A stretch of DNA of 40,807 bases from Candidatus Methanophagaceae archaeon GoMg1 (GTDB lineage Archaea; Halobacteriota; Syntropharchaeia; Alkanophagales; Methanospirareceae). The notes beneath the pieces are model-generated. The model was not told where the DNA came from. It saw only the letters and a program-made list of their open reading frames with translations, and did not search any database. Of the stretch, positions 1 to 36,673 are shown piece after piece. The stretch's first letter is position 1, and every line of letters starts with the position of its first letter. The stretch spans positions 1 to 40,807 of the forward strand of contig QBUL01000181.1 of assembly GCA_013180605.1 (NCBI GenBank). The letters run 5' to 3'. Position numbers and translations under genes: made by a program.

Positions 1-754
1 CTTCCTGAAGCGCTCCTTCTGCTTCCTCTACGGTCATGTCTTCTCCACCCGTCACGTTTACCAGTGCGGATTTCGCTTCCGACACGTCAACTTCAAGTAA
101 TGGAGAGCTTAGCGCCCTTCTCACTGCTTCGACTGCTTTGTTCTGACCGTCCGCTTCGCCAAAACCTATCATTGCCATTCCACCATCTTTCATCACCGTG
201 CGCACGTCAGCAAAGTCGAGATTTATAAGACCCGATTTGGTTATCAGCTCGGTTATCCCCTTGACTGCACGCATCAACACATCATCGGCGACTCGGAACG
301 CATCATTTAAGGGCAACCGTGGAACGGTATCCAATAACTTGTCATTTGGTATAACGATAAGCGTATCGGTATTTTCACGTAGTGCTTCAAGTCCCATATT
401 GCAATTTTCCCTTCTTACCTCGCCCTCCGCGTGAAAAGGCAAGGTAACCACACCAATGGTAAGAGCACCCGCGTCTTGCGCCGCTTGTGCGACTATGGGC
501 GCTGAACCCGTCCCTGTACCGCCACCTAATCCGCAGGTTACAAATACCATATCCGCATCATCCACGATTGATTTTATGTCGTCTTCGTTTTCCCTCGCCG
601 CTTCCTCCCCTAACCTCGGAATGCTTCCCGCGCCAAGCCCTCGCGTTGTCTTCTTCCCTATCAATAGTTTTCGCTCCACTTTTGAGAACAGTAAATGTTG
701 TGCATCGGTATTCAGAGCAAACAGATCCGCTCCAAAAATGCCCTCCTCGGTCAT
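1..754 (-). CDS. ftsZ: Cell division GTPase FtsZ (FtsZ1-like), partial: runs off the left edge and lacks its N-terminal P-loop segment
   Basis: Minus-strand translation from 754: [43 protein letters not shown]...[21 protein letters not shown]...[11 protein letters not shown]...[22 protein letters not shown]. It has the GGGTGTG signature and the T7 NLDFAD loop. No GGAG(N/C)N motif occurs upstream in any frame. Confidence 0.9.
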
Positions 755-923
755 CCGCTGTATTGAGTTAGAGGAGTATGTAAGAATACTGAAGTTGGCG
801 AAGCGACCAAAGAGAGATGAATTTTTCAAAATTTCTAAAATCGCGGGTGCCGCAATGGGACTGATCGGCATTATTGGATTCTCTATCTATCTTTTGATGT
901 CGGTTTTGCCCAAGGGGATTTGA
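739..923 (+). CDS. secE: Preprotein translocase subunit SecE (start uncertain)
   Basis: [52 protein letters not shown]: a basic segment plus a single TM typical of archaeal SecE, immediately upstream of spt5. The 456..738 part of the ORF is antisense to ftsZ. Confidence 0.8.
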
Positions 924-31563: not shown

Positions 31564-32430
31564 TCAATATACGCCTCGTTTTCTTTGCCTTGCTCTATTT
31601 AAAAATACGATCACCACTATTGCAATAATTGCCACTACAGCCAGAGCACTATAATTCATATGCTTTTTAGTGCCAACTGCCGATTCGGCTTTTTGTTTCG
31701 CAAGTTCAGCATAATAAGAAGCATTTGTTGCTGTCTCTATCGACTCTTTTGGCCACCCTTCCCAATAGTCTCTTTCAGCGTTTTCTAAATATACACTTGC
31801 CATTTCAAAAGCCGTATCTGCTTCGGATACGTCAATTCCTTTTTCTGTAGCGTTAGCAATGGTCCAATTCGCACTTTGTAGTTTTTCTCGTGCTTCATTC
31901 ATCGCGATTATAGCGTCTTCTATTATCTCCGATGATACATCCTTTTTTATGCTTTCCACTGAACAATATACCCCTTTTACCTCCTGCGTTATATTTAAAA
32001 AAGTGATATTTTCCCTCTTTTTCACCTCTGGTGCTTTTCCTCTCACTAATATCTTTACTTCTTTATCTCTCCCATGGTTCACCGTAAAAGGACTTTTATA
32101 TTCCTTAGATTTGCCATCTACAGATATAGTCGGCTCTATATTCTCCTTTTCCAAAAAATAAGAATAAAAAGAGAGGTCAGATTTATCTATTGGCTTGCTA
32201 AAATTAGTTAAGACCACTTCTATCGTAACTACACTACCATTTTTTACCATTCCGTATGAATTGAAAAAGTTATAATCCTCATACTCTATCTCTGTTGCAA
32301 CCTCCACGAACTTAGATTCCTGTAAGTTCGCTTGCTCTTTCGCAATAGCACCTACGCTCATGCATATTGACATCAAAAAAAACGCCAATATTAGTGAAAA
32401 TAACAATTTCTTTGTCAACATTATTCTCAT
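31564..32430 (-). CDS. Hypothetical signal-peptide protein with C-terminal TM anchor
   Basis: MLTKKLLFSLILAFFLMSICMSVGAIA signal; extracellular beta-rich then alpha-helical region; YSALAVVAIIAIVVIVFLNRARQRKRGVY anchor. Confidence 0.7.
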   Translation of the reverse strand: MRIMLTKKLLFSLILAFFLMSICMSVGAIAKEQANLQESKFVEVATEIEYEDYNFFNSYGMVKNGSVVTIEVVLTNFSKPIDKSDLSFYSYFLEKENIEPTISVDGKSKEYKSPFTVNHGRDKEVKILVRGKAPEVKKRENITFLNITQEVKGVYCSVESIKKDVSSEIIEDAIIAMNEAREKLQSANWTIANATEKGIDVSEADTAFEMASVYLENAERDYWEGWPKESIETATNASYYAELAKQKAESAVGTKKHMNYSALAVVAIIAIVVIVFLNRARQRKRGVY

Positions 32431-32444
32431 CCTCCTATCTTACC

Positions 32445-33596
32445 TCAGAACAAAGGTTTTATATTTCCGTTTGTATCCATTAATTCCTGATATTCACGCT
32501 CCTTCTCACTTGTCACCTCTTTTAATGTCTCCTGTGCTTCTGCTCCCATTTCCTGTAACTCTTTTATTCTTGGTATATTAGATACACCGGAAAAGAGCAC
32601 AACTGTCGCCACATGTTCACTCTTTACAATCGGGAAATCACCGCCTCTTACTTCCGTTCCTCTTATCATCTCCTCTATCCGTTCCTTCGATTTCTCCATG
32701 CCCTTCCTACTTAACTCCTCTGGTGGTCCCGCTGCTATTACCAAAGCCCTTTCCGCACTTGACAGTTCACAAGGAATCGTTAATCTGCCTGCTACTGCTC
32801 TCCTTGTCAAAGAAGTAATCCTTGTAACTGAATCCAGCTTATCCATCGTTCCCTTCTTCCTAAAAAGCTTCTTTAATCCTCTTTCTCGCTCTATTTCTTC
32901 CGCAGCATAGCCAATTGTGGATATTCCGCCTCCTTTAAGCGTGTTCATTATCTCCGCAGCATCTACTACCATCTGCCCCACTTCGTTCGCTTCCCCCGCA
33001 CCAAACAAAATCCCGAATCGCCTCACTATCTCCTCGTTTATGCCCGCATACGCCTCTTTTACCGTCTCTCCTCCCGTCTTCCACACGTCATTATCGAAAA
33101 GGAAAAGATTGTCAACCTCATTCATGAAAGTCATCAGACTCCGTGCAGCGTTTAAAGAGTATAAACTTCCTTCCCCCTTCGCCGGTAATATCCCCAGCCC
33201 GTAAACCGGCTCTTCATATAATTTCTTCAGCCTCCTTGCCAGCACGGGAGCGCCTCCCGAACCGGTTCCACCTCCTAAACCCGCTATTACCAGAAACGCA
33301 TCCACGTGATGTGTCCCTCGTTTATCTATCTCAGTTTGTATGGTATAAATTTCATCAGTGGCAACCTTCGCCCCTAATTCGTTATCTGCTCCTATCCCAT
33401 GCCCTTTCGTCAATGCCTCGCCTATAAGCACCCGGTCTTCCATTGGGATGTTCTTTAGCCCAATCAAATCGGACTTCGCTGTATTAATGGCCACGGCATT
33501 AATCACAAAATTCTGCCCCGTTCGCTTTGCAAATTCCAAAAACGCATCTGCAACTCTTCCTCCCGCTTGTCCATAGCCTATTATAAATACCCTCAT
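32445..33596 (-). CDS. cetZ: CetZ-type tubulin/FtsZ-like GTPase
   Basis: MRVFIIGYGQAGGRVADAFLEFAKR...AINTAKSDL...VLIGEALTKGHGIGADNELG...FLVIAGLGGGTGSGGAPVLARRLKKLY. Confidence 0.9.
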   Translation of the reverse strand: MRVFIIGYGQAGGRVADAFLEFAKRTGQNFVINAVAINTAKSDLIGLKNIPMEDRVLIGEALTKGHGIGADNELGAKVATDEIYTIQTEIDKRGTHHVDAFLVIAGLGGGTGSGGAPVLARRLKKLYEEPVYGLGILPAKGEGSLYSLNAARSLMTFMNEVDNLFLFDNDVWKTGGETVKEAYAGINEEIVRRFGILFGAGEANEVGQMVVDAAEIMNTLKGGGISTIGYAAEEIERERGLKKLFRKKGTMDKLDSVTRITSLTRRAVAGRLTIPCELSSAERALVIAAGPPEELSRKGMEKSKERIEEMIRGTEVRGGDFPIVKSEHVATVVLFSGVSNIPRIKELQEMGAEAQETLKEVTSEKEREYQELMDTNGNIKPLF

Positions 33597-33689
33597 TTTA
33601 TTCCCCCTCTCTTTCTCCTTTTTAATTTATATTTTGTATCTTTCATTAATATGTTATTTTGCAGATAGTGTCTTATTATATATAAGTAC

Positions 33690-34415
33690 TCATTTATAGC
33701 TCGAATATTTTAGAACGACATTCTTGCTGTACATATTTAAACGCACATCGTGCATGGATATTCTGCCCTTTTCCAAATTCATGCCTGCGCCTTTTTGTTT
33801 TTGCTGATTTATTATTAACCCGCCTATATTTCCCGTTTCAATTTCAAAAACAATATCTCCCACGTTCCCTATGTACTCCCCTCCTGCCGTTATAATCTTT
33901 CTATCTAAAATAGATGTACCAAACATCTTCATCGCTCGTTTTTTGCGATCGGATATTAAATTCCTGATAAACAACTCACTTCTTCTTATCTCTTCTATAT
34001 CATGCCCTAATAGATCGCCTATCGCTTTTACATCCACTACATCTTCCAGCTCGAGTCCAAGTCGGTATAAAATAGTATGCACCAAACATTGGGCGAACGC
34101 AAAGGGGTAGCTAACGGCATATTTACCGTGCGCCTTTGTCATATCCCCATCATCTACATCAAATAGGTACTCGTTCACTGCCTCTTTTACCTCCTTTGTA
34201 ATCAATTCCTTTACGTCATCTTCCGTGACGGGTACGGGTATCGTCCCCTTCTCTATTCCCTTACCCTCACAAATTTGGATTGCATAGGTGACAAAATGTT
34301 TTATCGCATCCTCTTCAATCGGCTCAAAAACGAAATTCCAGGGAAATAGACGTGATCGTGAGTAGGCAACGGCTTTTTCCCTTCCTTCTTTTTCCTTCCC
34401 CTGCTCCGCTCTCAT
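33690..34415 (-). CDS. PRC-barrel-domain protein (CdpB-like possibility)
   Basis: C-terminal MFGTSILDRKIITAGGEYIGNVGDIVFEIETGNIGGLIIN... is PRC-barrel-like; N-terminal domain not recognised. Confidence 0.65.
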   Translation of the reverse strand: MRAEQGKEKEGREKAVAYSRSRLFPWNFVFEPIEEDAIKHFVTYAIQICEGKGIEKGTIPVPVTEDDVKELITKEVKEAVNEYLFDVDDGDMTKAHGKYAVSYPFAFAQCLVHTILYRLGLELEDVVDVKAIGDLLGHDIEEIRRSELFIRNLISDRKKRAMKMFGTSILDRKIITAGGEYIGNVGDIVFEIETGNIGGLIINQQKQKGAGMNLEKGRISMHDVRLNMYSKNVVLKYSSYK

Positions 34416-34457
34416 CTCTTCTCCCCTCTCCTTTTCTTTATTTTTTTATTTTTTTTT

Positions 34458-35354
34458 TCACTTCTTAAAAAATTTCAGCATCTTATGAATATTCAAGCTT
34501 GAATCGGAAATACTTTTTCTTTTCCCTTCCCCTTCCTCTTTGCTCACCTCGATATTACAAATTCGCCATACCCATTCGCCAAAATCTGTCGCTTCGTATT
34601 CACCGTCATATTCCTTCGCCAAGTTATACCCTCTCTCACCGCTTACTAAATATACAACGCCATTAACAAGCTCTTTGTCGTAGGTATCATCACTTACAAG
34701 CTCTTTATATTCCTTGTCTTCGTGGTGAGAAATATCTTTTATTTCCTTTATCCGCAGTCTTCTCCCCTCTTTAATCAACGTTTCCAATGCATTAAGAGCG
34801 TATCCATTCTGTTTGAGCAGCATATAGCTCTTGCCTATTTTGTTTTCCATACCGAGCATGTGCTTCGCTGCCTCCTGTATTATCATTATTATATAACCCA
34901 GAACCTTCAAAGGCGATTTCTCCTTAGTGTGAATTTCTATGCCAGCCGTAGAGAAAGTGGCTTCTTTAAATTGAATACTTGGCTGTGGTTTGCCAAAAAA
35001 GATGCCAGTAAGAACAGAGAAATAAGCTTCAGAAATCGGCTCATGTTCGCTATCGTAGGGAAAGCGAGTCCCATCAAAGGAGTCAAGATTGGGAGCAAAA
35101 TCTGCAGTTAGCTCTAATATCTCACTTTTAACCTCTTCTACCTTCAAAACGGCACTGCTTCTGTCTTCCTTCTCCCTTCTCAGCTGCTTCGCTTCGGCAT
35201 CCAACTTCTCCCTTAGCTTTCCCCCTATCCCCTTTTCCAATAGCTCTTCTATCTCGTATAACTTGTCCTCACTCGCTTTATCAGCGTTTATTCCTTCTAA
35301 TCGCCAACATTCAGTGGCTAATACATTTGCATTTTCATTGAATTTATCCACCAT
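34458..35354 (-). CDS. Hypothetical protein, partly coiled-coil, in operon with cetZ
   Basis: MVDKFNENANVLATECWRLEGINADKASEDKLYEIEELLEKGIGGKLREKLDAEAKQLRREKED...; 42-nt gap to the PRC-barrel gene. Confidence 0.65.
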   Translation of the reverse strand: MVDKFNENANVLATECWRLEGINADKASEDKLYEIEELLEKGIGGKLREKLDAEAKQLRREKEDRSSAVLKVEEVKSEILELTADFAPNLDSFDGTRFPYDSEHEPISEAYFSVLTGIFFGKPQPSIQFKEATFSTAGIEIHTKEKSPLKVLGYIIMIIQEAAKHMLGMENKIGKSYMLLKQNGYALNALETLIKEGRRLRIKEIKDISHHEDKEYKELVSDDTYDKELVNGVVYLVSGERGYNLAKEYDGEYEATDFGEWVWRICNIEVSKEEGEGKRKSISDSSLNIHKMLKFFKK

Positions 35355-35466
35355 TTTCTCTTTTCCCCTCTCCCCCAAGGGCGGCAAATTTCTATTTCTA
35401 TTACTATTCTCTTCTTTCTTTCTTTCTAAAAACTTATTCTGAAAACTATTTATGTCCTTATTTAAC

Positions 35467-35482
35467 CGAAAGCTTTATATAA
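35467..35482 (+). promoter_or_regulatory. Archaeal promoter (BRE/TATA) of ftsZ paralogue
   Basis: cgaaagctttatataa, about 65 nt upstream of the ATG at 35546. Confidence 0.5.
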
Positions 35483-35545
35483 CCCTTCCTTCCTAAGGAA
35501 ACAACTACCAAGAAAAATTGTACGTAAATGATGTAAAAAAGGGGG

Positions 35546-36673
35546 ATGGATGATAAGATGGATACAATATTTGGGCATAGTCCCGAGGAAATAGATGTGA
35601 ATGAAGAAGCAGAGGAAGATTGGTTTGGCGTGCCGAAGATAGCGATCGTTGGTGTGGGCGGAGCAGGTAACAACTCTATGAACAGGTTAGAGCGCTTAGG
35701 GGGTCTGGAGGGAGTAGATAGAATAGCTATAAATACAGACAAACTGCACCTGGATTCGATAAGTTGCGAAAAGAAGGTATTGATAGGGAGGTCCCTTACC
35801 AGGGGGTTAGGAGCCGGAGGGTCTCCAGAAGTAGCGAGGAAAGCCGCGGAAATAGACAGAAACGAATTAGAAGGGTTGTTGGGAGATAAGAACTTTGTGT
35901 TCCTCACTGCGGGAATGGGCGGAGGAACAGGCACAGGGGCTTCACCCGTTATTGCAGAGATAGCAAAGGAAGCGGGCGCGATTGTCGTTGCTATGGTCTC
36001 GTTCCCGTTTGGGGTGGAGCGGAAAAGGAGAGACAGGGCAGCAGAAGGGATAGAGGAATTGAGAGAAGCAACAGATACGGTTATCGTATTGGAGAACGAC
36101 AAATTACTAAAATACGCAGGGAACCTCTCGGTGAATGATGCGTTTAAAACAATGGACATGTTGATTGCAAGTACAATACAGGGCATAGCGGGGACGGTAA
36201 CACAACCTTCTCTGGTTAATCTCGACTTTGCAGACCTCAAGGCAGTAATGGCAGAAGGCGGTGTCGCGGTGATGCTCGTCGGCGAGACGACAAAAGCGGA
36301 GAACAAACCCGAAGCGGTGGTGTCGGATGCGCTCAGCCATCCGCTGCTCGAAGCGGACTATCGAGATGCAAAAGGTGCTCTTATACACATCACAGGCGGC
36401 TCGGACCTTACAATGATCGAGACAAACGACATCGTGGAGTTGCTCACCTACGACTTGAATCCTGATGCAAACGTGATATGGGGAGCGAGAATAGATAACG
36501 ATTACGCGGGAAAAGCAAAGGTAACGGCGATAATTACCGGTGTAGAGCCAACATGGGTATTTGGCGGAAGATACGAAGACCGAAAAGAGGGTATAAACCA
36601 GAAGGTAAAGAATGTAGGTGCAAGTGCAGGTCGTAGAGGAGGAATCGGAGATATTATACCCATTATTCGCTGA
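35546..36673 (+). CDS. ftsZ2: FtsZ paralogue (FtsZ2-like)
   Basis: KIAIVGVGGAGNNSMNRL...AINTDKLHLDSISCEKKVLIGRSLTRGLGAGG...GMGGGTGTGASPVIAEIA...VNLDFADLKAVM: complete GTPase and T7 loop. Confidence 0.93.
   Translation: MDDKMDTIFGHSPEEIDVNEEAEEDWFGVPKIAIVGVGGAGNNSMNRLERLGGLEGVDRIAINTDKLHLDSISCEKKVLIGRSLTRGLGAGGSPEVARKAAEIDRNELEGLLGDKNFVFLTAGMGGGTGTGASPVIAEIAKEAGAIVVAMVSFPFGVERKRRDRAAEGIEELREATDTVIVLENDKLLKYAGNLSVNDAFKTMDMLIASTIQGIAGTVTQPSLVNLDFADLKAVMAEGGVAVMLVGETTKAENKPEAVVSDALSHPLLEADYRDAKGALIHITGGSDLTMIETNDIVELLTYDLNPDANVIWGARIDNDYAGKAKVTAIITGVEPTWVFGGRYEDRKEGINQKVKNVGASAGRRGGIGDIIPIIR

Follow-up and report, generated by a model that had tools for sequence, protein, structure and literature searches.

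A conserved four-gene cetZ operon in ANME-1 archaea includes a candidate membrane partner of CetZ

The 40,807-nucleotide contig QBUL01000181.1 of Candidatus Methanophagaceae archaeon GoMg1 (assembly GCA_013180605.1), the whole of which is referred to here as the window, belongs to a metagenome-assembled genome (2.34 Mb, 86% complete) of the anaerobic methanotrophic archaea of group ANME-1 (Methanophagales). It carries four minus-strand genes that encode, in order of transcription, a 298-residue protein without an assigned family (UNK), a PRC-barrel protein (PRC), a tubulin-like GTPase of the CetZ family and a protein with a signal peptide and a transmembrane (TM) helix (TMP), divergent from a complete ftsZ gene (Table 1). 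The four genes form a conserved operon, and the pair made up of cetZ and the TMP gene behind it recurs far outside ANME-1. All five open reading frames (ORFs) are present where a preliminary description of this DNA had placed them, and its identification of CetZ, a PRC barrel and a complete FtsZ is upheld by Pfam, and for FtsZ also by NCBIfam. Intergenic gaps within the operon are, in order, 42, 93 and 14 bases; UNK is read here from an ATG at 35354, and an alternative TTG at 35387 would add 11 residues.

Table 1. Genes and C-terminal features of the cetZ operon and its divergent neighbour, in window coordinates
Feature	Position	Strand	Description
UNK	34458..35354	-	298 aa; begins with a helical hairpin/coiled coil (aa 5-84), then a middle domain and a winged-helix-like region (aa ~172-274); a disordered linker leads to a short helix at the C-terminus
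UNK C-terminal 11 residues (NIHKMLKFFKK)	34461..34493	-	Cationic amphipathic helix; candidate membrane-targeting sequence
PRC	33690..34415	-	241 aa; helical N-terminal domain of ~160 aa with the motifs LFPWN and HG-x5-YPFA, then C-terminal PRC barrel
cetZ	32445..33596	-	383-aa CetZ1-type tubulin-like GTPase
CetZ C-terminal peptide (IKPLF)	32448..32462	-	PLF-type ending
TMP	31564..32430	-	288 aa; topology predicted from sequence: signal peptide, ectodomain beta-rich then helical, a single TM helix near the C-terminus and a short tail in the cytosol
TMP cytosolic tail (NRARQRKRGVY)	31567..31599	-	ANME-1 counterpart of [WY]D[EKR]LG in other lineages
ftsZ	35546..36673	+	375 aa; divergent neighbour, judged to lie outside the module
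FtsZ C-terminal segment (GGIGDIIPIIR)	36638..36670	+	Contains GID motif

The UNK-PRC-cetZ-TMP order was found in nearly all ANME-1 loci long enough to display it and, outside the class, in at least four other families of Halobacteriota (f11, f17, f20 and f29; f and g numbers label families and genera). Because the order is retained in dozens of genomes, a chance arrangement can be excluded. The preliminary description had proposed a cytoskeletal module at this locus; the neighbourhood is indeed kept across ANME-1 and other families, and what stands is a conserved operon of CetZ, a PRC barrel, a coiled-coil protein (UNK) and a signal-peptide/TM protein, with ftsZ removed from its membership. 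In f2 and f6 the set is broken between PRC and cetZ, leaving UNK-PRC apart from cetZ-TMP, so the operon can be regarded as two sub-units. UNK and PRC genes overlap in 20/76 cases, the spacing from PRC to cetZ has a median of 83 bp, and the first possible TMP start lies within 30 bp of the cetZ stop in 83/84 cases, many of them overlapping. UNK was matched in 56/394 phylum genomes, one of these matches being marginal, and in none of the haloarchaeal genomes searched. Among class genomes, UNK and CetZ are both present in 39 and both absent from 13, and one occurs without the other in 4 and 2 (Fisher P = 7e-8, a value inflated by the relatedness of the genomes); two of the six exceptions sit at contig ends. 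The ANME-1 genera g12 (6/6 genomes) and g4 (5/7) are without UNK and CetZ and retain SepF, an apparent loss of the whole module that offers a natural comparison for cell shape. At one locus (L183; G032:C186), UNK-PRC is followed by a 612-residue ORF on the opposite strand in place of cetZ, and CetZ was not found in the corresponding genome, which is 66% complete.

The window CetZ scores 230 bits for CetZ_C (cut-off 21.6) and 114.9 bits for the Tubulin domain in Pfam, and just 85 bits for FtsZ in NCBIfam. It matches Haloferax volcanii CetZ1 (PDB 4b46) at 446.9 bits over residues 1-375, versus 274.3 bits for CetZ2 (4b45), and the GGGTGSGG loop is invariant in the CetZ alignment; the sequence points to a CetZ1-type protein rather than CetZ2 or a deep CetZ. 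In the CetZ tree, which was built by a quick method and has some long branches, CetZ2 and the long deep CetZs fall on branches of their own, and H. volcanii CetZ1 falls in a largely TMP-adjacent group, beside two haloarchaea with TMP downstream. The UNK-bearing lineages share one branch (Shimodaira-Hasegawa-like approximate likelihood ratio test (SH-aLRT) support 94), so a single origin of the UNK-PRC addition suffices; this branch includes f3, in whose one genome (64% complete) no UNK match was found. The TMP-adjacent label needs at least seven changes overall on the same tree. Proteins of the CetZ family polymerise in a GTP-dependent manner, and H. volcanii CetZ1 is the same family and subtype as the window protein, with near haloarchaeal relatives that have a TMP gene directly downstream. 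CetZ1 of that species governs cell shape or motility (PMC10869688).

At its C-terminus CetZ has a flexible tail followed by [IL]xPLF or [SA]LF: a PLF-type ending was present in 100 of the 127 distinct tails sampled and [SA]LF in another 20. Among the stray paralogues of ANME-1, three that lack the operon (L037-L039) have lost this ending, and others retain it. The PLF tail was also considered as a mark specific to TMP and was ruled out, because CetZs lacking a TMP neighbour retain PLF. At L029:6579-11146, the operon's TMP gene is followed by a further CetZ, which ends in APLF, and stray CetZs similar to this copy occur in L015, L017, L023 and L034. Deep-branching CetZ-like proteins of ~590-710 residues with no adjoining TMP gene occur in the non-haloarchaeal families f9, f19 and f25 (L179, L180 and L195).

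The window TMP has no Pfam or NCBIfam match above the curated cut-offs. A first TMP profile, made solely from module-bearing and Alkanophagales lineages, matches the gene immediately downstream of cetZ in methanogens and one haloarchaeon (E values down to 2e-13). Other haloarchaeal and a few methanogen matches to this profile were weak or insignificant (E values of 1e-4 to 0.1), and these sequences were then taken into a broader alignment, with which the family was matched in 254/388 phylum genomes. TMP lies directly downstream of cetZ on the same strand, with 74-159 bp between the profile matches, in 95/95 genomes compared, a count that covers only genomes with both CetZ_C and TMP among the matches listed. 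In haloarchaeal f22 and in part of the f24 genomes, CetZ1 is present with no TMP next to cetZ. Judged by sequence, the TMP family is delimited here by a signal peptide, an ectodomain, a single C-terminal TM helix, a conserved short tail and a position directly behind a CetZ1-type cetZ, all of which the window protein shows. DUF4398 matches 15/29 members weakly and in the window TMP is confined to the helical part of the ectodomain; this and the other Pfam matches of members (to FapA, RIFIN and further families) resemble scattered hits to coiled coils and were set aside.

TMP combines a large, variable ectodomain with a very short cytosolic tail, which is among the best-conserved parts of the protein across the phylum. 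Its terminal motif lies about 8-18 residues past the TM helix, and the endings of 87 sampled neighbours comprise [WYF]D[EKR]L(G) (44), the ANME-1-type R(G)[IV]Y (26), W[EG]RL (5) and others (12). Unlinked TMP copies in f10 (L232-L235) end in FDELK, WDELK or WDELR, and two of them have a second related gene behind.

Given the gene order, protein families, distribution, conserved tails and co-loss observed, we favour, on a nearly even balance, the reading that the four genes make up a single operon serving a CetZ cytoskeleton linked to the envelope, with TMP as linker and PRC and UNK as an additional layer. CetZ would polymerise with GTP and present its flexible tail with [IL]xPLF as a docking peptide, the counterpart of the FtsZ C-terminal peptide. 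TMP would cross the membrane once. Outside the cell, its ectodomain would extend into the envelope or S-layer; on the inner side, its short tail ([WY]D[EKR]LG; RKRGxY in ANME-1) would contact the CetZ system directly or via an adaptor and thereby couple filament position to the envelope. CetZ and this single-pass linker would be the old pair, and a second cytosolic layer of PRC and UNK would have been gained once, in the Syntrophoarchaeia and four related families. PRC may act as a scaffold, as PRC proteins do for FtsZ, and UNK as a coiled-coil/winged-helix protein whose amphipathic tail would hold it to the membrane, the two jointly organising or regulating CetZ filaments. As proposed, the arrangement resembles archaeal SepF-FtsZ, in which a tubulin-family C-terminal peptide docks on a membrane-bound partner (PMC8178401), but the CetZ peptide is PLF rather than GID, and TMP, which spans the membrane and carries an ectodomain, does not have the SepF fold. 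The idea that TMP is an envelope tether, put forward in the preliminary description, gains weight because the cetZ-TMP pair reaches well past ANME-1; the physical tether itself, like the other protein contacts, the attachment of UNK to the membrane and the part played in cell shape, is what we infer from these patterns. A more specific version is possible but doubtful: TMP would be, phylum-wide, a dedicated linker tying CetZ to the envelope via matched C-terminal motifs, and in ANME-1 and its relatives a membrane-bound PRC/UNK layer would make this a two-sided trans-envelope linkage that sets cell shape.

Several points weigh against an envelope-linked CetZ system, beyond the selection behind the 95 genomes and the relatedness behind the co-occurrence P value. 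The ANME-1 TMP tail (RKRGxY) is unlike the tails of other lineages in sequence; CetZ copies without a TMP neighbour still end in PLF (23) or [SA]LF (13), including those of haloarchaeal f22; and TMP occurs both as copies unlinked to cetZ (f10) and without CetZ (f12), the latter in five genomes (L227-L231) with no CetZ match and no tubulin gene nearby. The winged-helix region of UNK, moreover, could bind DNA rather than protein or membrane. The PLF endings kept without TMP and the TMP of f12, together with a large, variable ectodomain joined to a very short cytosolic tail, would also fit co-expression without contact, whereby TMP, associated with the envelope or S-layer, serves the same shape programme as CetZ and the operon merely matches amounts. 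However, the tail is conserved phylum-wide and differs where CetZ is missing (it reads RAKL, SKL or KKL in the five f12 genomes), and the cetZ and TMP genes overlap or almost touch in nearly all sampled genomes, so that we consider co-expression alone unlikely, if worth keeping in view.

The second sub-unit of the operon consists of PRC and UNK. Pfam limits the PRC barrel (PF05239, 29 bits) to residues 164-206 of 241 and finds this domain in 20/20 members; in the AlphaFold2 model (predicted local distance difference test (pLDDT) score 82.3), an N-terminal domain of helices precedes the barrel. Among solved structures, the barrels of CdpB1 and CdpB2 (PDB 8onw, 8qzo) come closest in fold, with about 20% identity over ~70 residues. 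These proteins share with PRC an archaeal PRC-barrel fold tied to a tubulin-family filament, but the operon protein bears the extra helical domain of 160 residues, whereas a CdpB is a small protein consisting of the barrel that works with FtsZ and SepF in division. The assignment of PRC as a CdpB-family partner, suggested in the preliminary description, is ruled out by this architecture, in which the barrel is just the last third, and two small PRC proteins encoded on another contig of the same genome are better CdpB candidates. CdvA was likewise considered, and neither PRC nor UNK has a Pfam match to it.

UNK forms a conserved family in alignment, with no Pfam or NCBIfam family and no PDB match by sequence. 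Its AlphaFold2 model (mean pLDDT 82.2) shows a helical hairpin/coiled coil, a middle domain, and helices with a beta-hairpin resembling a winged helix, with a Y-x-x-T-x-x-G signature; comparison with the PDB by Foldseek gave weak MarR-type fold matches, none of them significant. Disordered residues precede the tail helix in the model. The helix ranks among the protein's top hydrophobic moments in nearly all lineages and has a net charge of +2 to +6 in most, consistent with a membrane-targeting sequence. UNK could instead regulate the operon (in ANME-1 also the divergent ftsZ) through DNA binding by its winged helix, leaving PRC, CetZ and TMP as the mechanical parts. Such a role would agree with the winged-helix-like topology and its signature, the MarR-type matches and the intergenic region shared with divergent ftsZ in part of ANME-1, but it sits poorly with the lack of a significant fold match, the long N-terminal coiled coil, the conserved amphipathic tail behind a disordered linker and the persistence of UNK with PRC even where the pair is apart from cetZ. 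We judge the regulator role improbable.

The divergent neighbour is FtsZ, with 372.8 bits for TIGR00065 (cut-off 295.2, NCBIfam) and, in Pfam, 102.5 bits for FtsZ_C and a Tubulin domain. It is divergent from UNK in about 18 of the 28 ANME-1 loci that extend far enough to show it, and in no other family. The GID motif is reported to bind SepF in archaea (PMC8178401), and SepF was found in 55/58 class genomes, including genera without CetZ and UNK; because of this distribution and its GID tail, FtsZ probably has its own anchor. The preliminary description had counted FtsZ as part of the module, which corresponds to a single division and shape machine in which PRC would bridge FtsZ and CetZ in the manner of CdpB. 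Although the ftsZ adjacency in ANME-1 and the nearness of the PRC barrel to CdpB in fold would suit such a machine, ftsZ lies away from the module in all other families, its tail is of the SepF-binding type, SepF is widespread in the class and retained by ANME-1 genera without CetZ and UNK, and the small CdpB-like PRC proteins are encoded elsewhere, which makes an FtsZ-inclusive machine very improbable. The operon was also considered as an FtsZ anchor in ANME-1 lacking SepF, and this was ruled out by the same 55/58 count. SepF was not found in the window's own assembly, most likely owing to the incompleteness of that assembly.

CetZ itself is a known family; the arrangement described here appears to be new, with a strong phylum-wide gene link. 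In its main text, the survey of Brown and Duggin 2023 (PMC9856176) covers cetZ neighbourhoods in Halobacteria, Thermococcales, Archaeoglobales, Methanomicrobiales and Methanosarcinales and reports nolA, F420, nucleotide, NAD and pilus genes, with few similarities in Archaeoglobales, Methanomicrobiales and Methanosarcinales. That main text mentions no PRC protein and no membrane protein downstream of cetZ, and TMP may be among the unnamed uncharacterised genes of the accompanying archaeal orthologous group (arCOG) tables. The neighbourhoods that the same text stresses for H. volcanii CetZ1 (nolA, F420 and nucleotide genes) differ from the ANME-1 operon, as does the absence of UNK from the haloarchaeal genomes searched. 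The type IV pilus regulons that it associates with cetZ2 and with the cetZ genes of Thermococcales are likewise a case of cetZ joined to envelope genes, but the ANME-1 operon is without pilus genes and involves another CetZ subgroup. The literature searched, from which bioRxiv and most subscription papers fell outside, yielded no description of the operon or of the CetZ-TMP pair, no membrane anchor or partner of CetZ, no paper linking CetZ with ANME-1 and no paper on HVO_2203. The position of TMP behind cetZ1 from ANME-1 to haloarchaea makes it a concrete candidate CetZ partner that is testable in Haloferax. If the proposal is true, it would provide the first genetic handle on cell shaping in ANME-1, archaea without pure cultures, for which the genera identified as lacking the system are usable for comparison.

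Other tubulin-superfamily genes occur in the same genome. A second FtsZ is encoded at window positions 1-871 on the minus strand, where it is cut by the contig end, beside a Spt5/NusG-like gene (930-1394). Elsewhere, a tubulin-superfamily ORF of at least 696 residues, in an open frame of about 900, lies at C143:10459-11016 (L004) and includes a segment resembling a coiled coil, and another of 309 residues, with membrane proteins on either side, lies at C51:1114-1374 (L005); these two may belong to the divergent FtsZ-like families with a presumed role in membrane remodelling.

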